From Quadrisphaera granulorum (GTDB taxonomy: Bacteria; Actinomycetota; Actinomycetes; Actinomycetales; Quadrisphaeraceae): DNA of 64,000 bases. Under the pieces are notes generated by a model, which did no database searches, was not told where the DNA came from, and saw only the letters and a list, made by a program, of their open reading frames with translations. How positions within the stretch are numbered: the stretch's first letter is position 1; every line of letters starts with the position of its first letter. Shown piece after piece: positions 12,417 through 51,073 of the stretch. The translations under genes and the position numbers were made by a program. The DNA is taken from NCBI RefSeq assembly GCF_003149145.1, contig NZ_QGDQ01000013.1:1-64000 (forward strand), given 5' to 3'.

Positions 12417-12968
12417 ATGACCACCACCCTGCCCGCCGGTCTCGTCGCTGGTACCTACACCGTCGACCCGTCGCACTCCGAGGTCGGCTTCACCGCCCGC
12501 CACGCGATGGTGACCAAGGTGCGCGGCCGCTTCTCCGACGTCGCGGGCACCGTGGTGCTGGCCGAGGACGCCTCCCTGATCTCCGTCGAGGCCACGATCC
12601 AGGTCGCGAGCATCGACACGCGCAGCGCCGACCGCGACGGCCACCTCAAGAGCGCCGACTTCTTCGACGTCGAGACCTACCCGACCATGACCTACCGCTC
12701 CAGCGCGGTACAGGTGACCGGTGACGGCTTCGTCGTCGACGGCGAGCTCACCCTCCACGGCGTGACCAAGCCCGTGCAGCTCGAGGTGACCGCCGAGGGG
12801 GTGGCCACCGACCCGTTCGGCAACTCCCGCGCCGGCTTCTCCGCCGAGGCCGAGATCAACCGCAAGGACTTCGGGCTGACCTGGAACGCGGCCCTGGAGA
12901 CCGGCGGCGTGCTCGTCAGCGAGAAGATCAAGATCACGCTCGACATCTCGGCCATCAAGCAGGCCTGA
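12417..12968 (+). CDS. YceI family protein
   Basis: 183 residues. The start ATG at 12417 follows a GGAGG ribosome site (12408-12412). The YceI lipocalin-like signature is present: YTVDPSHSEVGFTARHAMVTKVRG (about 14-37), SADFFDVETYPTM (about 80-92), DGELTLHGVTKPV and a C-terminal NRKDFGLTWNAALETGG-VLVS. YceI proteins bind isoprenoid-type lipids in a beta-barrel. No signal peptide is seen here, so it is likely cytoplasmic. The gene ends in a strong hairpin (12987-13020). Confidence 0.92.
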   Translation: MTTTLPAGLVAGTYTVDPSHSEVGFTARHAMVTKVRGRFSDVAGTVVLAEDASLISVEATIQVASIDTRSADRDGHLKSADFFDVETYPTMTYRSSAVQVTGDGFVVDGELTLHGVTKPVQLEVTAEGVATDPFGNSRAGFSAEAEINRKDFGLTWNAALETGGVLVSEKIKITLDISAIKQA

Positions 12969-12986: not shown

Positions 12987-13020
12987 CCTTCCCGCACTTT
13001 CCTCGGCAAGTGCGGGAAGG
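12987..13020. terminator. Strong bidirectional terminator hairpin (copy 1 of paired repeat)
   Basis: A perfect 13-base-pair stem (CCTTCCCGCACTT / AAGTGCGGGAAGG) with an 8-base loop TCCTCGGC, located between the convergent genes yceI and the F420-type oxidoreductase. The inner 22 bases are a copy of the repeat that recurs at 13034, 42362 and 42403. Confidence 0.75.
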
Positions 13021-13055
13021 GAGTGGCCTTTGGCGCACTTTCCTCGGCAAGTGCG
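12987..13055. repeat. Paired palindromic repeat, locus 1 (two copies, 41-base period)
   Basis: Two identical 22-base units of form CGCACTT-N8-AAGTGCG (loop TCCTCGGC) start at 12993 and 13034, exactly 41 bases apart, with a 19-base spacer of unrelated sequence. The left flank reads CCTTCC. The same pair with the same spacing occurs in reverse orientation at 42361-42424, also between convergent genes. This resembles bipartite REP/BIME-type elements. Each unit can fold into a 7-base-pair (or longer) hairpin. Confidence 0.85.
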
Positions 13056-13094
13056 AGAGGGAACAGAGCTGGGCCGGGGGACGACGACGCGCGC

Positions 13095-13616
13095 TCAGCC
13101 AATGACGACGGCCCGGAACACCGGGTGCTTCGGAGCCGCCGCGAGAAGCGCCTCATCAGTGGCGTCCGCGCTGACGCCGTCGAAGAACGCCCCCACCTCC
13201 CACGCCCATCGCCGCAGGTACTCCCGCAGCACGGCCACCTTCTCGGCATCCGCCAGCTCCACCGCCTCGAACACCTCGACGCGACGCCCGAGCCGCAGCT
13301 CGCCACCGCCGGCAGCCCGCAGGTTCCGCACCCACTGCGTGGTGCCCCGGGGAGCGACGAGGTAGACCTGCCCTCCGGCCCGCAGCGGGTTGACCGGCAC
13401 CGTGCGCCACTCACCACTGGCCCGCCCGCGCACCGCGAGCACCCGCGACCCAGCCAGCGGCAGACCCCAGCGAGTCAGGCGCTCGACCAGCGGGTTGCCC
13501 ACGCGCACCGTGAACCACCCGGGGGCCAGGTAGCGCGTCGATCCGACAGAACGCCCCTTCTCGCCCGAGCCCTTCTCGCGAGCACCGGATCGATTCGAGA
13601 GCGCTGATCTCTTCAT
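13095..13616 (-). CDS. Deazaflavin (F420)-dependent nitroreductase family protein
   Basis: 173 residues. The split-barrel DUF385/DDN-type signature is visible: NPLVERLTRWGLPLAGSRVLAVRGRASGEWRTVPVNPL (about 40-77) and GQVYLVAPRGTTQWVRNLRAAGGGELRLGRR (about 82-112). Family members reduce nitro or enone groups with F420H2 in mycobacteria and relatives. The N-terminal 25 residues are charged and probably flexible. It is divergent from a TetR-type gene 87 bases away, which probably controls it. Confidence 0.88.
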   Translation of the reverse strand: MKRSALSNRSGAREKGSGEKGRSVGSTRYLAPGWFTVRVGNPLVERLTRWGLPLAGSRVLAVRGRASGEWRTVPVNPLRAGGQVYLVAPRGTTQWVRNLRAAGGGELRLGRRVEVFEAVELADAEKVAVLREYLRRWAWEVGAFFDGVSADATDEALLAAAPKHPVFRAVVIG

Positions 13617-14586: not shown

Positions 14587-15495
14587 GTGAGCCGGCACCG
14601 CGCTCCGTCGCCCGTGACGCGCCGCGGCGCGCTGGTGGCTGGCGCCGCCTGGGTGGCCGGTGCGTTCGCAGCCTCGTCGGGAGTCGGCGCCCGCCCACCG
14701 TCCACCGCGACTCCCCTGAGCGCGTCATCGGAACAGCTCACGGCGGTCCAGGTTCAAGACCCTCCGCCGGCGAGCGGTCAGCTGTCAGCCACGGCGCCGC
14801 CGACCACGTCGGCGACCGAAGCGCCTCCCAGCCCCAGCCAGACGCCCAGCGCAACAACCAGCCCGACACCCAACGCGACGAACGCGGCATCGAGCACGAC
14901 GGCGCTCGACAGGTCGGCCCACTCCACGACGGACGCGGCCAGCCCCTGGGTGGTGGTCAACAAGCAGCATCCCGTGACGCCCCTCGACTACGAGCCGGCA
15001 CAGATCGTGAAGGTCGCCGGGGAGCGCGTCAGCGCCGCGGCGGCACCGGACCTGGAGGCACTGCTGCAGCACAGCCGCGACGACGGCGTCGCGCTGACGC
15101 TGGTCAGCGGCTTCCGGGACTACGAGTACCAGGCCCAGGTCCACCGCCGCTCGGTAGCACGCAACGGCCAGGCCGGCGCCGACAGGTACAGCGCCCGCGC
15201 TGGGCACAGCGAGCACCAGACGGGCCTCGCCGTCGACTTCTCCTCCGCCGACGGCAGGGCAACCCTGAGCCCGCGCTTCGCCCGCACCGACGAGGGCCTA
15301 TGGCTGGCCGAGCATGCGGGCGGCCACGGCTGGTTGCTGCGGTACACCGAAGCCGACCAGGCGGTCACCGGGTACAACCCCGAGCCGTGGCACTTCCGCT
15401 GGGTGGGTGTCGAGCTCACCACGGCGATGGCGCAGGCGGGCGTGGCCACGCTGGAGGAGTTCTTCGGGGTCAGCGGCGGCGCCCAGTACGCATGA
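14587..15495 (+). CDS. M15 family D-alanyl-D-alanine carboxypeptidase (VanY-like), exported
   Basis: 302 residues from GTG at 14587, preceded by GGAGGTGG. The N-terminus has a twin-Arg signal (VTRRGALVAGAAWVAGAFA), then a Ser/Thr/Pro/Ala-rich linker (about 40-120) that probably spans the wall. The catalytic domain shows WVVVNKQHPV, LTLVSGFRDYEYQ, the zinc motif SEHQTGLAVDF (about 208-218) and EPWHFRW (about 266-272), so the His, Asp and His ligands are all present. It trims the terminal D-Ala of peptidoglycan stem peptides. Alternative upstream in-frame starts lie in the TetR gene. Confidence 0.9.
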   Translation: MSRHRAPSPVTRRGALVAGAAWVAGAFAASSGVGARPPSTATPLSASSEQLTAVQVQDPPPASGQLSATAPPTTSATEAPPSPSQTPSATTSPTPNATNAASSTTALDRSAHSTTDAASPWVVVNKQHPVTPLDYEPAQIVKVAGERVSAAAAPDLEALLQHSRDDGVALTLVSGFRDYEYQAQVHRRSVARNGQAGADRYSARAGHSEHQTGLAVDFSSADGRATLSPRFARTDEGLWLAEHAGGHGWLLRYTEADQAVTGYNPEPWHFRWVGVELTTAMAQAGVATLEEFFGVSGGAQYA

Positions 15496-15515
15496 GCCCC
15501 ACGTGACGTGAGCAG

Positions 15516-15543
15516 AGCCCGCCCGGCGCGGGCCGGGCGGGCT
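15516..15543. terminator. Bidirectional terminator hairpin
   Basis: A perfect 12-base-pair stem (AGCCCGCCCGGC / GCCGGGCGGGCT) with a 4-base loop between the convergent VanY-like and hsp20 genes. Confidence 0.75.
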
Positions 15544-15565
15544 GAACCTCAGGTCAGGGTCTTGA

Positions 15566-16054
15566 TCAGGACGTAGCCGAGGAGCCCACGGCCTCGCGCG
15601 ACTGCGGCGAGCCCTGCACCACCTCGTGATGGGTCGAGTCGCTCGTGCGGCTGACCTCTACGCGACGCGGCTGCGCCGAGGGCGCCACCGGCACCAGCAG
15701 GTGCAGCACACCGTCGCGGTAGTCGGCGCTGACGCCTGCGGCGTCGAGACCGTCACCGATCTGCAGCTGCCGGATGAACTGGCCGTGCGGGCGCTCGGCG
15801 ATGATCACCTCGCGTGAACCCGCGGCGCGCGTGGCGCGGTCGGCGCGGACGGTGATGACGTTGCGCTCGGTGGTCACGTCCACGCTGGACGGGTCGACAC
15901 CGGGCAGGTCGAGCTCGACGTGGTAGCCGGCGTCGTCCTTCCAGACGTCCATCGGCATGCGCATCGGGGTACGGGCGCCACTGACCAGCTGCTGAGCCAT
16001 GCGGTCGAGCTGGCGGAAGGGGTCACCGAAGGGGTCGAACTGCATGACGGTCAC
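15566..16054 (-). CDS. Hsp20/alpha-crystallin small heat shock protein
   Basis: 162 residues from GTG at 16054. An AGGAGG site 5 bases upstream fits this start better than the internal ATG at 16045. The alpha-crystallin domain spans about 40-130 (DVWKDDAGYHVELDLPGVDPSSVDV, VITVRADR, then GVLHLLVPVAP with the C-terminal strand). It acts as an ATP-independent holdase. A HAIR-like palindrome at 16160-16182 suggests HspR control. Confidence 0.92.
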   Translation of the reverse strand: MTVMQFDPFGDPFRQLDRMAQQLVSGARTPMRMPMDVWKDDAGYHVELDLPGVDPSSVDVTTERNVITVRADRATRAAGSREVIIAERPHGQFIRQLQIGDGLDAAGVSADYRDGVLHLLVPVAPSAQPRRVEVSRTSDSTHHEVVQGSPQSREAVGSSATS

Positions 16055-35013: not shown

Positions 35014-36852
35014 GTGAGCGACAACCGCCCCGCGACCGACCTCCGGAGCGCGGACGCCCCCGAGCTGGTGCTCGGACCCATGCTCCGCCACGTCGACGCG
35101 ACGAGCGCCACCGTGTGGGTGGAGACGAGCGGCCCCTGCACGGTGTGCGTCGAGGTGGGGGCGGGTGTGCTCGACGTCCCCGTCACAGCCTCCGGGGCGA
35201 CCTGGGGTGTCCACGGCCACCACTACGCGATCCTCGTGGTGCACGGGCTTCCCGAGGGCAGCGAGCTGCCCTACCGCGTGCTGCTGGGCTCGGCGGGGCT
35301 GTCGAGCAGTCCGTCGGGAGCGGCAGACGCGCCTCAGATGCGGTGCGTCTGGCCGCCCACCGAGGACGACGACGCCGCGGCGTTCGCGGCGTTCCCCCCG
35401 AGCACCCTCCGTACCGCGCGCTCCGACGGCAAGCTGCGGCTGGCGTTCGGCTCCTGCCGACGCTCGGAACCCCTCGATGCCGCCGGTGTGGCCGCGGTGG
35501 GACCTGACGCCCTCGTAGAGCTGGCCCACCGCACGGCTGAGGCCGCCCGCAGCGAGGGCTCCTTCGAGCGGCCCGACGTGCTGCTCATGCTGGGTGACCA
35601 GCTCTACGCCGACGAGCCCTCCGAGCCGATCAAGGAGCGGTTAGAGCGCGCCCGCCGCGACCCCGACGTGGCCGATCACCCCGAGGTCGCCGAGGAGATC
35701 TGCACCTTCGAGGAGTACACGTGGCTGTACACCGAGAGCTGGAGCGCCCCTCCGGTGCGGTGGCTGCTCTCCACGATGCCCACGTGCATGCTCCTGGACG
35801 ACCACGACCTGCGCGACGACTGGAACACCTCCCAGGCCTGGCGCGAGGAAATGCGTCGCAAGCCCTGGTTCGACGACAGGGTGCGCGGCGCCCTCGGCAG
35901 CTACTGGGTCTACCAGCACCTGGGCAACCTCAGCCCCGCCGAGCTCGACCGCGAGCAGCTGCTCGCGGCCGTCACGGCAGCTGAGGACGACGACGCGCGC
36001 ACCGCGCTCCTCGACGACTACGCCGAGCGCGCCGACACCGACCCGGACGCCGCGCGCTGGAGCTACGTACGCGACTTCGGGCGCACCGGGACGCACGGCG
36101 GAGAAGGCGGAGAAGCAGGCGGCGGGGTGCGGCTGGTGGCCGTCGACTGCCGCTGCTCACGCCGCCTGGACCCGGGAAACCGGGCGATCCTCGACGACGC
36201 CGAGTGGGCGTGGGTCCAGGAGCAGGCGCAGCCCGGCGCCCCGGTCGACCACCTGCTGCTGGCCAGCACGCTGCCGGTGCTCATGGTGCCGGCGTTCTCC
36301 GACATCGAGGCGTGGAACGAGGCCCTCGTGGCGGGGCGGTGGGGGCGATGGCTGCGCCGGCCCGCGGAGGCGCTGCGCCAGGCGATCGACCTGGAGCACT
36401 GGCCGGCGTTCGGGACGTCCCTGCACGACCTCCTGCGGCTGCTCGCCGGCGTCGCCGGGACCACGCGCCCGCCGTCGTCGATCCTCATGCTCTCCGGCGA
36501 CGTGCACTGCAGCTACACGGCGCGGGCGCAGCTCGACGGTGTGGTCGGGAGCCCTACCGCCGTCCACCAGCTGGTGATGTCGCCGTTCCGCAACCCCCTC
36601 AAGCCCGCGCTGCGGGTGGCCAACCGGCTCGCCGACATCGCTCCCGTGCGGGCCCTGGCGGGCCTGCTGGCCCGCACGGCGGGCGTGGAGCGGCCGCCGG
36701 CCACCTGGGAGGTGGAGGAGGGGCCGTGGTTCGACAACGGGGTGATGACGGTGGTGCTCGACGGGCGCAGCGCCCGTCTCGAGGTCGACCACGTCAGGGT
36801 CGACCGTGACGGACGCTGGCAGCGGCGCACGCACCACCGCACGCTCGCCTGA
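35014..36852 (+). CDS. PhoD-like alkaline phosphatase family protein
   Basis: 612 residues from GTG at 35014. It has an N-terminal Fn3-like domain (LGPMLRHVDATSATVWVETSG, about 16-36), then the metallophosphatase core with LRLAFGSCRRSE, LLMLGDQLYADEP (about 190-202), CMLLDDHDLRDDWNT (about 264-278), HLLLASTLPVLM and MLSGDVHCSYTARA (about 492-505). The metal-binding Asp, Asn and His positions are present. There is no signal peptide, so it may act in the cytoplasm, unlike secreted PhoD. An upstream GTG would add 22 residues of weak coding character. Confidence 0.88.
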   Translation: MSDNRPATDLRSADAPELVLGPMLRHVDATSATVWVETSGPCTVCVEVGAGVLDVPVTASGATWGVHGHHYAILVVHGLPEGSELPYRVLLGSAGLSSSPSGAADAPQMRCVWPPTEDDDAAAFAAFPPSTLRTARSDGKLRLAFGSCRRSEPLDAAGVAAVGPDALVELAHRTAEAARSEGSFERPDVLLMLGDQLYADEPSEPIKERLERARRDPDVADHPEVAEEICTFEEYTWLYTESWSAPPVRWLLSTMPTCMLLDDHDLRDDWNTSQAWREEMRRKPWFDDRVRGALGSYWVYQHLGNLSPAELDREQLLAAVTAAEDDDARTALLDDYAERADTDPDAARWSYVRDFGRTGTHGGEGGEAGGGVRLVAVDCRCSRRLDPGNRAILDDAEWAWVQEQAQPGAPVDHLLLASTLPVLMVPAFSDIEAWNEALVAGRWGRWLRRPAEALRQAIDLEHWPAFGTSLHDLLRLLAGVAGTTRPPSSILMLSGDVHCSYTARAQLDGVVGSPTAVHQLVMSPFRNPLKPALRVANRLADIAPVRALAGLLARTAGVERPPATWEVEEGPWFDNGVMTVVLDGRSARLEVDHVRVDRDGRWQRRTHHRTLA

Positions 36853-36864
36853 CGGCAGGCACAG

Positions 36865-36897
36865 CGAAGGGCCCCGGCGGAGTGCCGGGGCCCTTCG
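36865..36897. terminator. Bidirectional terminator hairpin
   Basis: A perfect 14-base-pair stem (CGAAGGGCCCCGGC / GCCGGGGCCCTTCG) with a 5-base loop, lying between the convergent PhoD-like and gguB genes. On each strand the stem ends in a short T-containing stretch. Confidence 0.85.
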
Positions 36898-36919
36898 TGA
36901 CACAGCTCAGCGCCAGCTA

Positions 36920-38149
36920 TCAGCGGGTGCCGGAACGGCGCTTGTTGTAGACGTCGAAGGCGACGGCCAGCAGCAGCACGAGGCCGCGGATGATGAACTG
37001 CCACTCCTGGCCGAGGCTCAGGATGATCATGCCGTTGTTGATGACAGCGACGAGCAGACCACCGACCATGGCGCCGACGATGGTGCCGACGCCGCCGGTG
37101 ACAGCTGCGCCGCCGATGAAGGCAGCGGCGATGGCGTCGAGCTCGGCGCCGGTGCCGGCGGCGGGCTGGGCGCCGTTGGTGTACGCGGAGAAGATGACAC
37201 CCGCGACACCGGCAAGGAAGCCCATGTTCACGAAGATCCAGAAGTTGACCTTCCGGACGTTGACACCGGACAGCATGGCCGCGGAGAGGTTGCCGCCGAT
37301 GGCGTAGACCTGGCGCCCGAACACCGTGGACTTGGTGATCACGACGTAAGCCATGATCAGGAATGCCAGCGTGATGAGGACGATCGGCAGACCGCGGGCG
37401 GTGGCGAGCTGCCAGGCGAACCACATGACGACGGCGCCGACAACCACGATCTTCAGCAGCAGCACGGGCAGCGCCTCGACCACCTGCTGGTACTTGATGC
37501 GCGCTCGGCGGGTGCGCAGCTGCTGTGCGACGAACCCGGCGACGGCTACCGCACCGATGAGCAGGGTGAAGGCGTCGTATCCGTAGCCGCCCATGAGGCC
37601 ATTGAGATACCCGGTGGCGAGGTCCTGGTACGACTGCGGGAACCCTGACAGCGAGATGTTCTCCAGGACCAGGTAGTCCAGACCCCGGAAGAGCAGCATG
37701 CCCGCGAGCGTCACGATGAACGCCGGGACACCGACGTAGGCCACCCAAAAGCCCTGCCAGGCTCCGATGACGATGCCCACGGCGAGACCGGCGAGCGCGG
37801 CAACCCACCAGGGCTGCTCATAGGTGATGGCGAGTCGGGCGGCTACGGCACCGACCACCGCCAGCACGGAGCCGACCGACAGGTCGATGTGCCCGGCAAC
37901 GATGACGATGAGCATGCCGATGGCCAGGACCAGCACGTAGGCGTACTGGGTGACGATCGTGGAGACGTTGCGCGCGGCCAGGCTCTGGCCGTCGGTGAGG
38001 ATGGCGAACAGCGCCACGACCAGGACGAAAGCGATGTAGATGCCGCTCTGACGCAGATTGGCCGTGAGAGCCACCAGGGGGTTGGCGCTGCCGGTCTTGG
38101 GTTGGGGCGCCTGCGACGCCGGTGCGGGCGCGGTGGCCTGGGTGCTCAT
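36920..38149 (-). CDS. gguB: Multiple-monosaccharide ABC transporter permease (GguB type)
   Basis: 409 residues with about ten membrane segments in the BPD_transp_2 layout. Typical motifs are [21 protein letters not shown] (about 88-108), [48 protein letters not shown] (about 295-320) and [31 protein letters not shown]. It forms the channel of the ChvE-dependent importer. It overlaps the ATPase gene by 4 bases and is the last gene of the operon. Confidence 0.93.
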
Positions 38150-41384: not shown

Positions 41385-42302
41385 GTGCCTTCGCTCCGCC
41401 CCAGCGCGCCGGACCGTGCGGATCTCGTCGCGCGCGTGCTCGCCTGGTATGCCGAGCACGCGCGCGACCTGCCCTGGCGCCGGCCGGGGCCGCCCGAGAA
41501 GAGGGCGTGGCCGGTGCTCGTCAGCGAGGTGATGCTCCAGCAGACGCCCGTCGCCCGAGTGGAACCCGTGTGGCGTGCGTGGCTGCACCGCTGGCCAGAG
41601 CCTGCTGCGCTGGCCGCCGAGCCCGCCGGCGAAGCCGTGCGGGCGTGGGGCCGGCTGGGCTATCCCCGCCGGGCCCTGCGCCTGCACGCGGCAGCAGGCG
41701 CCGTCGTCGAGCGGCACGGCGGGCGGGTGCCGTCGGACCAGGCAGAGCTGCGGGCGCTGCCGGGGGTCGGCGCGTACACCGCCGCCGCGGTGGGCGCATT
41801 CGCCTTCGACCAGCGGGTAGCGGTGGTCGACACCAACGTCCGCCGCGTGCTCGCGCGTACCGTGCAGGGCAAGGCGCAGCCGGCGCCGGCGCTGACCGCC
41901 GCCGAGACGGCCCTGGCGGTCGCGGTGCTGCCTGAGGCGCCCTCGGACGACCCCGTCCTGCCGGCCCGCTGGTCTGTCGCCGTGATGGAACTGGGAGCCC
42001 TGGTCTGCACCGCGCGGGCGCCGCGATGCGGCGCGTGCCCCGTCGTCGACCTGTGTGCCTGGCAACGCGCCGGGGCGCCCCCGGACGACGGGCCGGCGCG
42101 GCGCGGTCAAGCCTGGCATGGCACCGACCGGCAGGTGCGGGGCCGGCTGCTCGCCCTGTTGCGGGAGGCGCCCGGTCCCCTCGACGCCGCGGCCCTCTCG
42201 GTCGCTTGGGACGACGACGCCCAGCGCGAGCGCTGCCTGGCCTCTCTCGTGACCGACGGGCTCGTCGTCCCCGCCGAGGGTGGGTGGGCCCTGCCGGGCT
42301 GA
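41385..42302 (+). CDS. mutY: A/G-specific adenine glycosylase
   Basis: 305 residues. It removes adenine opposite 8-oxoguanine. Signatures are DLPWRRPGPP (about 28-37), SEVMLQQTPVARV (catalytic Glu, about 47-59), helix-hairpin-helix LPGVGAYTAAAVGAFAFDQ (about 124-142) with catalytic Asp in VVDTNVRRVLAR, and an iron-sulfur loop C-x6-C-x2-C-x5-C (CTARAPRCGACPVVDLC, about 205-222). It lacks the C-terminal NUDIX-like domain of longer MutY proteins, as is usual in actinobacteria. Confidence 0.94.
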   Translation: MPSLRPSAPDRADLVARVLAWYAEHARDLPWRRPGPPEKRAWPVLVSEVMLQQTPVARVEPVWRAWLHRWPEPAALAAEPAGEAVRAWGRLGYPRRALRLHAAAGAVVERHGGRVPSDQAELRALPGVGAYTAAAVGAFAFDQRVAVVDTNVRRVLARTVQGKAQPAPALTAAETALAVAVLPEAPSDDPVLPARWSVAVMELGALVCTARAPRCGACPVVDLCAWQRAGAPPDDGPARRGQAWHGTDRQVRGRLLALLREAPGPLDAAALSVAWDDDAQRERCLASLVTDGLVVPAEGGWALPG

Positions 42303-42360: not shown

Positions 42361-42384
42361 CCGCACTTGCCGAGGAAAGTGCGG
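42361..42384. terminator. Hairpin (copy 3 of paired repeat) after mutY
   Basis: CCGCACTT-N8-AAGTGCGG, an 8-base-pair perfect stem with loop GCCGAGGA, located between the convergent mutY and GNAT genes. Probably serves as a terminator. Confidence 0.6.
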
Positions 42385-42424
42385 TTCCCGAGCCGTCGGT
42401 GGCGCACTTGCCGAGGAAAGTGCG
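42361..42424. repeat. Paired palindromic repeat, locus 2 (two copies, 41-base period, reverse orientation)
   Basis: Two units of form CGCACTT-N8-AAGTGCG start at 42362 and 42403, again exactly 41 bases apart with a 19-base spacer that differs from locus 1. The loop is GCCGAGGA, the reverse complement of the TCCTCGGC loop at locus 1, so the element is inverted. Reading the other strand, the left flank again contains CCCTTCC. Both loci sit between convergent genes. Confidence 0.85.
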
Positions 42425-42494: not shown

Positions 42495-43088
42495 TCAGCG
42501 CAGGCGCAGCAGCATCCTCGTGTTGCCGAGGGTGTTGGGCTTCACGCGCGCGAGGTCGAGGAACTCGGCCACGCCGTCGTCGTGGGAGCGCAGCAGCTCG
42601 GCGTAGACCTCCGGCGCCACGGGCGTTCCCTCGATGACCTCGAACCCCATCCGCGCGAAGAAGGGCACCTCAAAGGTGAGGCAGAAGACGCGAGAGACGC
42701 CGGTCTCGCGCGCGTCGTCGAGCAGCGCCGACACGATGGCCGAGCCCACGCCGTGTCCCCGTGCCGAGGGTGCGACGGCGAGCGTGCGGACCTCGGCGAG
42801 GTCCTCCCACATGACGTGAAGCGCACCGCACCCGACGACGACGCCGTCGAGCTCGGCCACGCGCATCTCCGGGACGCTCTCGTAGGTCGCCACAGCGTGC
42901 TTGGCCACGAGCACCCCGCGCTCGGCCAGCGGCTCCGTGAGGGCCCTCACGGCCCGCACGTCGCTGGCGCGTGCCCGTCGCACATGCACCCGCCCAGAGG
43001 CCTCCTGTAGGGCGCTGCGAGCCTCCTCGCCGGCAGCAGCCGTACCGGCAGCCTCGCCGTCGGCGCTGCCGGCCGCGGAAGACGTCAC
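42495..43088 (-). CDS. GNAT N-acetyltransferase, amino-acid (ArgA-like) type
   Basis: 197 residues from GTG at 43088. An acidic Ala/Gly-rich leader (about 1-30) precedes the GNAT core: VHVRRARASDVRAVRALTEPLAERGVLV (about 34-61), VVGCGALHVMWEDLAEVRTLAVAP and the acetyl-CoA loop SARGHGVGSAIVSALLDDARE (about 107-127), then FFARMGFEVIEGTPVAPEV. This resembles the stand-alone amino-acid N-acetyltransferase that makes N-acetylglutamate for arginine synthesis in actinobacteria. Substrate is inferred. Confidence 0.85.
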   Translation of the reverse strand: MTSSAAGSADGEAAGTAAAGEEARSALQEASGRVHVRRARASDVRAVRALTEPLAERGVLVAKHAVATYESVPEMRVAELDGVVVGCGALHVMWEDLAEVRTLAVAPSARGHGVGSAIVSALLDDARETGVSRVFCLTFEVPFFARMGFEVIEGTPVAPEVYAELLRSHDDGVAEFLDLARVKPNTLGNTRMLLRLR

Positions 43089-49210: not shown

Positions 49211-50086
49211 GTGGTGGCACCTCCCGAGGACAGGCCCGAGGCCGACGACGAGGCACGGCGCACCTCCTTCGGCACGCTCGTGGACGCCGAGCGGTACGAC
49301 AGGCTGCGCCCCGACCATCCCGACGAGGCCGTCGCGTGGCTCACCGGCAGCTCCGCGGGCCCCGGACAACTACCCGGACAGCCCAGCGAGCGGCCCCTGG
49401 ACGTGCTGGATCTGGCCGCCGGCACCGGCAAGGTCTCGCGGGCCCTGGCCCGCCAGGGCCACCGGGTAGTGGCCGTCGATCCGAGCGAAGGCATGCTCGC
49501 GGTGCTGCGCCAGTCCCTGGCCTCCATCCCGAACGCCCGGGTGGAGCTGCGGGTGGGCACCGCCGAGCACGTCCCCCTGCCGGACGGCTCCGTCGACGCC
49601 GTCGTCGTGGGCCAGGCATGGCACTGGCTGCGGCCCGCGGCCGCGGCCGCGGAGGTGGCGCGGGTGCTGCGTCCGGGCGGGGTGCTCGGCCTGTCGTGGG
49701 TGGTGCGTGACCTGCGCGTGCCGTGGGCCGCGCAGCTGGAGACCCTGCTGGGCGGCGAGGGCCTCGGGGAGGCCACCGGAGCCGACGAGGCGACCCACGG
49801 TGCCAGCATCCGTGATCTCGCCGACACCGACTGGTGGCCGCGGGTTCCGCTGCACCGCGGGGGACAGCACGCCGTGCGCGAGCGCGCGTCGTTCCCTGCG
49901 GTGCAGCACCTGGCGTCGGTGGACGACGTCGTCGACCTGGCCTCGACGTACTCGGGGCTGGCGGTCAGCGACCGCCGGGAAGGGCTGCTGCGGCAGGTCC
50001 GGGAGCTGGCGACCGCGGCGGCCCAGCCCGACGGGTCGGTGCTGCTGCCGCAGGTGTGCCACTGCTTCCGCTACCGGATCCCCTGA
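49211..50086 (+). CDS. Class I SAM-dependent methyltransferase
   Basis: 291 residues from GTG at 49211 (the next GTG codon is equally plausible). Motif I is [34 protein letters not shown] (about 61-94), with [12 protein letters not shown] (about 132) and [21 protein letters not shown] (about 147). This belongs to the methyltransferase type 11 family. It is divergent from lysS with 65 bases between. Substrate is unknown. Confidence 0.87.
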
Positions 50087-50087
50087 T

Positions 50088-50112
50088 CCGGCCCGGGGTT
50101 GCCACGGGCCGG
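50088..50112. terminator. Bidirectional terminator-like hairpin
   Basis: An 8-base-pair stem (CCGGCCCG / CGGGCCGG) with a 9-base loop, between the convergent methyltransferase and panC genes. Confidence 0.55.
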
Positions 50113-50143
50113 CCTGCGGGTCAGCGGGCCGTCACCAGGCTGG

Positions 50144-51073
50144 TCAGCGGGACGCGCCGACCACCAGCGGCGCGTTGTCGATGAGCCGGGTGGGCCCGAC
50201 CCGCGCGGCCACCGCCAGCAGCGCCGGGCCGCGGAAGTGCTCCGGCACGTCGGCGAGGGTGTCGGGGTCGACGAGCGCCAGGTAGTCGACACGCGCCAGC
50301 GGCTCGCGCACCAGCACGTCGCGGGCGGCGCGGCGCACGGCGCTGGCGCCCTCCGGTGCGGCCCGCTCCCCCGCGGCCAGCGCCCGTGACAGCACCAGGG
50401 CCACCTCCCGGTCGAGCGGAGACAGGTGCGCGTTGCGACTCGACAGGGCCAGCCCGTCGGGGTCGCGCACGGTCGGCACGGACACCACCTCCACCCCCAG
50501 GTCGAGGTCGCGCACCATGCGCCGCACGAGCAGCAGCTGCTGGGCGTCCTTCTGCCCGAACAGCGCGACGTCGGGGCGGACCAGGTGCATGAGCTTGGCC
50601 ACCACCGTGAGCACCCCGTCGAAGTGCCCCGGCCGCGCGGCACCCTCGAGCACGGTGCCCAGCTCCCCGGAGGACACCCGGACCGCCGGGTCGCCGTCGG
50701 GGTAGACCACGTCGGGCGACGGCGCGAACACGACGTCGGCGCCGACGTCGCCGAGCAGGGCCAGGTCGGCGTCGAGCGTGCGCGGGTAGCGCGCGAGGTC
50801 GGCGCCGGCCCCGAACTGCAGCGGATTGAGGAAGATCGTCACGACGACGCTCGCCGCACGCTCGCGGGCGACCTCCACGAGCGCCGCGTGGCCGGCGTGC
50901 AGTGCCCCCATGGTCATGACGACGGCGACCGGCCCGGGCAGCTCGGCCCGGGCCGCCGCCAGCTCGGCGCGCGTGCGCACGAGCAGGGGGGCGCCGTCGC
51001 GGGAGACGGCGCCGGGCTGGGCCGTGTGCTGGGCCGTGTGGTCGGTTGCGCGGGCCGCTGCGGGTGTGGTCAT
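50144..51073 (-). CDS. panC: Pantoate--beta-alanine ligase
   Basis: 309 residues. It joins pantoate and beta-alanine with ATP. Signatures: [17 protein letters not shown] (about 51-67), [11 protein letters not shown] (about 77), [37 protein letters not shown] (about 143-174) and LSSRNAHL (KMSKS-like, about 210). The first 25 residues are a variable leader. It overlaps the DUF2520 gene by 4 bases, so the two are coupled. Confidence 0.95.

Follow-up and report, generated by a model that had tools for sequence, protein, structure and literature searches.

A candidate REP-like family of regularly spaced palindromes near gene 3' ends in Quadrisphaera granulorum and its relatives

Introduction

Between two convergent genes of Quadrisphaera granulorum, a member of the Actinomycetota, lie two identical palindromes of 22 bases whose starts are exactly 41 bases apart, and the same pair, inverted, recurs between two other convergent genes of the same stretch of DNA (hereafter the window: 64,000 nucleotides, positions 1 to 64,000 of contig NZ_QGDQ01000013.1 in assembly GCF_003149145.1). 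What sort of element retains both its sequence and its period when the sequence between its units changes? An earlier note, made from the letters of the window, had proposed a bipartite element of the REP/BIME kind, or a protein that binds both units, in preference to chance terminators. The persistence of REP-like elements without a transposase, and whether their role is exercised as DNA or as RNA, is a long-standing question.

Results

Two Phased Pairs in the Window

The four units that had been noted are all present and exact, and in both pairs they stand 41 bases apart, start to start, on either side of 19-base spacers that differ between the two loci. The parts of these loci and the genes that converge upon them are as follows.

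12417-12968, + strand: gene of a YceI-like protein, left convergent neighbor of locus 1; 24 bases from its stop to unit 1
12987-12992: CCTTCC, outer pyrimidine flank of locus 1; pairs with GGAAGG at 13015-13020 to give unit 1 a longer stem
12993-13014, + strand: palindromic unit 1 of locus 1; exact match, 22 bases, sequence CGCACTTTCCTCGGCAAGTGCG; family A, core TCCTCGGC
13015-13033: spacer of locus 1, 19 bases long; its positions 3 and 17 are A and T
13034-13055, + strand: palindromic unit 2 of locus 1; exact, again CGCACTTTCCTCGGCAAGTGCG; starts 41 bases after the start of unit 1
13080-13089: GACGACGACG, on the outer side of locus 1; tags of this type are enriched next to arrays
13095-13616, - strand: gene of the F420H2-dependent quinone reductase family, right convergent neighbor of locus 1; 39 bases from unit 2 to its stop
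41436-42302, + strand: gene of an HhH-GPD base excision repair protein (MutY/EndoIII type), left convergent neighbor of locus 2
42362-42383, - strand: palindromic unit 1 of locus 2; exact reverse complement of the locus 1 unit
42384-42402: 19-base spacer of locus 2; two mismatches against the spacer of another array of the host genome (L144)
42403-42424, - strand: palindromic unit 2 of locus 2; exact reverse complement, 41 bases after unit 1
42495-42959, - strand: gene of a GNAT acetyltransferase, right convergent neighbor of locus 2

The inverted pair had been rightly recognized, with its start placed one base early (at 42361 instead of 42362), and the extension of the first stem by the CCTTCC and GGAAGG flanks, from 12987 to 13020, is confirmed. 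A search of the window for CGCACT-N10-AGTGCG with at most one mismatch gave four matches against 0.68 expected, a number that none of 100 shuffles reached; the search for CGCACTT-N8-AAGTGCG with three mismatches allowed gave four against 3.04 expected, a count that by itself is not significant.

The predicted fold of locus 1 is strong (-50.3 kcal/mol, z -5.0). This favors an element that would act at the RNA level, its tandem hairpins serving as bidirectional terminators or as stabilizers of 3' ends with no DNA-binding protein involved; against such an element, a consensus scan for intrinsic terminators found no run of T following the stem at locus 1 or locus 2. The Rfam search of the 64-kb window returned no match at the gathering score, and a known RNA family was rejected after 15 microRNA-family matches in four stretches (best E 1.6e-6), all below the gathering score, were judged to be chance hairpin likeness. 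An origin from a plasmid or phage was also rejected: the locus 1 stretch has no match in plasmids or phages and the family A pattern occurs in none of the viral contigs, where the pattern of a second family, B (described below), has one match, a lone palindrome. By eye, three further convergent gaps of the window (15495-15566, 36852-36920 and 50086-50144) hold single GC-rich inverted repeats without units.

Copy Number and Spread among Genomes

The earlier expectation of many copies proved correct: the host genome (G000; 4.88 Mb in 86 contigs) has 91 exact matches to GCACTTNCCNNGGNAAGTGC, rather than the four of the window, and the reversed-pattern control has none. Its units follow the consensus CGCACTTTCCGCGGCAAGTGCG, of which those of the window are the T11 variant, and are at least 95% uniform at 21 of the 22 positions. 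Across the six genomes of the genus (the host and its relatives G001-G005) the strict-pattern copies number 91, 50, 33, 1, 0 and 0, the strict pattern understating G003 and G004. Among 296 genomes sampled evenly across the class, a stricter paired pattern was present in the host genome only, the sample holding no other family member. The named genomes rich in copies, among the matches listed, are Amycolatopsis marina and A. palatopharyngis, and a few loci occur in the deposit "Streptomyces sp. NP160", whose genus label may be wrong. For the analyses below, 53 stretches of the host, 38 of G001, 24 of G002 and 10 of G003 yielded 131 arrays of one to four units each; those of G001-G003 are among the matches listed, and at least two further G001 arrays lie outside the set (C1:142039 and C11:154325).

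Such strong differences in copy number among relatives, together with the near identity of the host units, are features that one would expect of selfish REP-like replicators, spread by some transposase or conversion process and devoid of any host function. A search for a RAYT gene near the copies had been proposed; a profile search for the Y1_Tnp family (PF01797) found none in the six genus genomes or in three further records (two Amycolatopsis and NP160), and the positive control for the same profile gave matches in 5 of 14 named genomes. The negative result, which covers the Y1_Tnp family, counts against replicators of this kind.

A Fixed Period with Mostly Free Spacers

The finder of array clusters extends only at 40-43 bases, and the unbiased counts given here come from separate searches with open spacing. 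Between 31 and 61 bases the host genome has 39 pairs, every one at 41 (31 pairs) or 42 (8 pairs), and the reversed control has none; the spacing is not random. When only GCAC-N12-GTGC was required, in the 539 kb of analyzed stretches, 102 of the 106 pairs spaced 22-66 bases apart fell at 41 (67) or 42 (35), with exceptions at 26, 29, 39 and 40; beyond that range there is one pair at 67, and spacings of 82-84 are those of next-nearest neighbors. The period is shared by relatives. Two copies of CGCAC-N12-GTGCG at spacings of 28-58 occur as 46 pairs in six relatives (31 in G002, 6 in G003, 3 in G004, 6 in G008, a member of another genus of the same family, and none in G005 or G009), and in the four that have them 44 stand at 41 or 42; the exceptions, 43 and 45, are both in G004, and the reversed control gave one pair in G008 and none in the other relatives. 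The constancy of the period with a changing spacer is thereby borne out both genome-wide and in relatives. The orientation of the units, which the asymmetric core reveals, is free, with +-, ++ and -- pairs all at 41/42.

The spacers are not wholly without pattern. Positions 3 and 17 of the 19-base spacers are A or T in 95% of cases (82 spacers, both strands), position 3 being A in 70% and T in 25%. Complementarity between spacer ends does not exceed that of shuffles, and a cloverleaf formed by pairing of outer flanks or spacer ends was rejected on the same ground. The A/T period peaks at 10.25 (80 pairs), a value to which the 41-base period itself contributes by construction. In the Amycolatopsis set (80 loci, including a few NP160 and single-match loci) spacings cluster near 33, 42.5, 52.5 and 63, that is, about 10 bases apart; the linkers of 33 and 52/53 are unrelated by eye, and those of 42/43 and 63 are partly conserved, so that the latter spacings are not independent. 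In A. marina and A. palatopharyngis (L031-L133) the arrays consist of two or three CGCACTTTCCCGGGAAAGTGCG units with about four classes of linker length.

A spacing of almost exactly four helix turns suggests that the units are read by a DNA-binding protein, and helical phasing of sites separated by free linker sequence, the mark of an array of DNA-binding sites, is what we find. The spacing is still best accounted for by the putative protein, postulated in the note, that would bind both units, its role being predicted from sequence. The RNA-level element leaves a fixed 41/42 period with variable spacers unexplained, and selfish replicators do not predict it.

Position Relative to Genes

The predicted preference for convergent gaps is clear: 72 of the 131 arrays are convergent, against a baseline of 8 of 48 non-overlapping gaps, taken from the window alone. 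The remainder comprise 43 tandem arrays, 6 divergent, 7 inside called open reading frames and 3 at the edges of stretches; genes were called by codon usage and not taken from annotation, so some of those classed as divergent or intragenic may be miscalled. The median distance to the stop codon is 19.5 bases for convergent arrays (144 ends, 73% at 30 bases or less); tandem arrays lie a median of 25 bases behind the upstream stop and 91 ahead of the next start. In short, palindromes of 22 bases occur in runs of one to four with a period of 41-42 bases, mostly no more than 30 bases from stops. At one place (L145:1824-1845, L210, L258) a called reading frame, menD-like by eye, contains a unit or pair, at the matching position in three genomes.

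This position directly behind stops speaks for hairpins acting in RNA, as does the fact that in 44 of the 72 convergent gaps 35 bases or fewer are left on each side, which leaves little room for another terminator. The gap of locus 1 bears on the same point. In five relatives it contains no unit within six mismatches and holds instead a long hairpin of the AGAAGACC or GGAGGCCC type, about 15-45 bases behind the stop, so that the earlier dismissal of terminators was too strong. The intact locus 1 array, present in the host alone among the six genomes, is at the same time a point for selfish replicators.

Short tags occur beside the arrays. CGTCGTC on the left, or GACGACG on the right, is found 10-40 bases outward in 48 of 262 flanks; the opposite orientation accounts for 2, and about 13 would be expected from background. 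Repeats of this type stand at 13080-13089 of the window and in the flanks of L146, L151, L163 and L180. GTGG (28) and GTAG (6) are found in only part of all the inner flanks.

Evolution at Shared Sites

Single linkage gave 30 groups of shared sites with arrays in at least two of G000-G003, though in 6 of the 30 a single genome contributes more than one array, so that some may be merged sites. At shared sites the unit, the period and the slot are retained, and the spacer sequence and the number of units change. The comparison embraced 69 orthologous pairs, including some cross-pairs where one stretch has two arrays; 33 with unequal unit number give no identity, and the means are based on 34 of the remaining 36. 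On this basis the identity of orthologous units is hardly distinguishable from that of random units (0.929 versus 0.932 for G000/G001, 0.902 versus 0.906 for G000/G002, 0.876 versus 0.878 for G001/G002). The spacers, in the same order, reach 0.68, 0.63 and 0.61 versus 0.54 at random, and the 20-base outer flanks, at 0.69, 0.66 and 0.70 versus 0.65, are hardly above it. Because units at shared sites are only as alike as random units, while spacers keep a likeness specific to the site, the evolution is concerted: units change together across whole genomes. Position 15 illustrates this, being C in 98 of 103 host and 84 of 91 G001 units and A or G in 51 of 55 G002 units.

Concerted evolution at shared sites, with a consensus that differs by species, would also be expected of an exchange signal like the DNA uptake sequences, whose copies stay alike through preferential uptake and recombination. 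The units do sit in paired 3'-end hairpins, and they include AAGTGCG, which belongs to the Haemophilus uptake core. Nonetheless, some 90 copies are few for an uptake signal, the fixed 41/42 period is not predicted by one, and we regard this explanation as very improbable.

The spacers show how far doublets may have been copied. Most look independent; yet among 135 spacers there are 75 pairs with four mismatches or fewer, versus 7.9 by column shuffles. Four of these pairs join spacers of a single array, 6 join those of a single orthologous group and 65 come from unrelated arrays, the last figure to be set against a first-order Markov control with a mean of 38.7 and a maximum of 71. Seven unrelated pairs differ by only two mismatches, including the pair formed by locus 2 and L144, both in the host genome, and similar spacers occur at the unrelated sites L238 and L256. 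Such near copies suggest that copying may at times have included the entire doublet, and both they and the tandem 41/42-base duplications with identical or near-identical spacers at six loci (L192, L183, L254, L288, L293, L297) speak for selfish replicators. However, most spacers appear not to have been copied along with their units and the 30 groups of shared sites retain arrays across species, and we consider a purely selfish origin somewhat unlikely.

A Second Family in the Same Slot

Families A (TTTCCGCGGCAAG core, period 41/42) and B (CTCGCGCACCCGAG core, period 42) have their outer arms, length and period in common. Family B, with core CGCACTCGCGCACCCGAGTGCG, is represented by 17 pairs in G002 and 4 in G003, all 21 at 42 bases, with spacers such as GCTTC...GAAGG.

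L274:2373-2436 and L283-L299: examples of family B in stretches of G002 and G003

The two families can occupy one orthologous gap. Where the host has its A pair at locus 2, G002 has a B pair at 42 and G003 a single decayed A-like unit with 6 mismatches (L275:2375); in G001, G004 and G005 this gap has no unit within 6 mismatches. In G008 palindromes of further cores also stand at 41/42. Just ahead of the B array in L296 and L297, from two genomes, there is a related palindrome of the GTACTTTCC...GGCAAGTAC type.

DNA Site or RNA Hairpin

The stems themselves provide evidence on both sides. A T:C mismatch inside the stem is conserved in 97 of 103 host and 82 of 91 G001 units, and the RNA-level element accounts neither for it nor for the genome-wide shift of the unit consensus. 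Changes in the arms of G000-G003 are mostly uncompensated: 130 are one-sided and 10 two-sided, and of these ten, seven are compensated versus about 4.6 in shuffles. In G008, on the other hand, there is covariation at the inner stem positions of 14 distinct units (53 of 70 versus 43.6 shuffled, sd 2.9), the largest value in 2000 shuffles being 53, and the six units of G004 tend in the same direction (25 of 30 versus 22.5). At least six contiguous complementary flank bases occur in 15 of 103 host, 15 of 92 G001 and 7 of 55 G002 units, versus 2-4% in shuffles; stems are thus lengthened by at least six flank pairs in about 15% of G000-G002 units, 4-8 times the shuffled level. Flank pairing is raised overall in G002 (z 3.1), and the lengthened stems of G003 (2 of 16) are within shuffles. 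Both the covariation and the lengthened stems favor an RNA element or a cruciform. Weighing these points with the missing T-runs and the fixed period, we judge an element acting through RNA alone to be unlikely. In our judgement the period is best explained by DNA recognition and the slot by hairpins, and the two may operate together.

Discussion

The reading that we favor, tentatively and with less than even confidence, is that the arrays form a lineage-restricted REP/BIME-like family of phased palindromes at gene 3' ends, the predicted sites of a dyad-symmetric DNA-binding protein. A unit with its A/T flanks, about 30 bp, would be the putative site of such a protein, and neighboring dimers would lie on one face of the DNA, about four helical turns apart. 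The resulting protein-DNA block at transcript ends could stop or insulate converging transcription and confine supercoils. RNA hairpins would probably add to 3'-end formation, the arrays doubling as bidirectional 3'-end structures. In favor of the protein-site reading we count the period, the A/T positions of spacers whose ends show no excess of pairing, the spacing classes of Amycolatopsis, the likeness of orthologous to random units, the mostly one-sided arm changes, and the place of the arrays behind stops with little room left in convergent gaps. Several observations count against it: the uniformity of the units exceeds what binding would require and could reflect recent copying, and to this are added the covariation in G008, the lengthened stems and the near copy of the locus 2 spacer at L144.

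How do the arrays compare with known systems? According to Di Nocera (2013; PMC3733652), the REPs of the GTAG and CGTC super-families are extragenic palindromes of 20-40 bases in many copies, mainly in convergent and unidirectional gaps and often <20 bases from stop codons, and the CGTC families have no dedicated transposase; untagged REP-like families of M. tuberculosis are mentioned there, and a word search of the main text of that paper gave no occurrence of actinobacteria, Streptomyces, Frankia or Amycolatopsis. The host arrays resemble REPs in being imperfect palindromes of 22 bases at 91 sites, extragenic and near 3' ends in convergent and unidirectional gaps, and they resemble the CGTC families in the lack of a dedicated transposase detectable by the Y1_Tnp search. 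They differ in that the period is fixed, the units may point either way and the spacers vary, and in that the CGTCGTC tag lies 10-40 bases outward, whereas the REP tag is at the palindrome end. As no Y1 (HUH) tyrosine transposase was found in the genus, we class the arrays as REP-like and not as a RAYT/REP system. Candidate REPs of Actinomycetota are already in print, in a RepRanger table of palindromic extragenic candidates from three genomes (PMC12306157), in which we found no mention of this unit, of a fixed period or of these genera. The open-access literature searched contained no description of this palindrome family.

The BIMEs of enterobacteria are arrays of regularly spaced palindromes for which binding by proteins such as gyrase, IHF or Pol I has been proposed. 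The host arrays likewise have several palindromes at regular spacing, and the Amycolatopsis arrays, with their classes of linker length, are the most alike; in the host genus, by contrast, linkers are mostly free in sequence and fixed in length, and no RAYT was found. The organization first proposed, REP/BIME-like, agrees with the size, copy number, position and regular spacing of the units. REPINs are doublets of short palindromes, variable in copy number between strains, that are copied whole with their inner sequence; the host doublets resemble them in form and in variable copy number, but their spacers mostly differ between copies and their units occur in either orientation. With intrinsic bidirectional terminators the arrays share the slot, the hairpin potential and the plain hairpin of the relatives' locus 1 gap, and they depart from these in having no U-tract, a concerted sequence and phased repeats.

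A more ambitious interpretation, which we hold to be quite unlikely, is that the arrays constitute a code of phased sites extending over the chromosome and read by one putative protein at transcript ends, in species-specific dialects (families A and B) able to fill the same orthologous gap. If this were true, site and protein would co-evolve, forming a termination or domain-boundary system; we know of no description of such a co-evolving system in bacteria. Whichever interpretation holds, the genus offers a natural system in which a fixed period is combined with mostly free spacers, units evolve in concert, two dialects occupy one slot and strict-pattern copies range from 91 to 0, and in which the DNA-phasing and RNA-hairpin models give differing and simple predictions.
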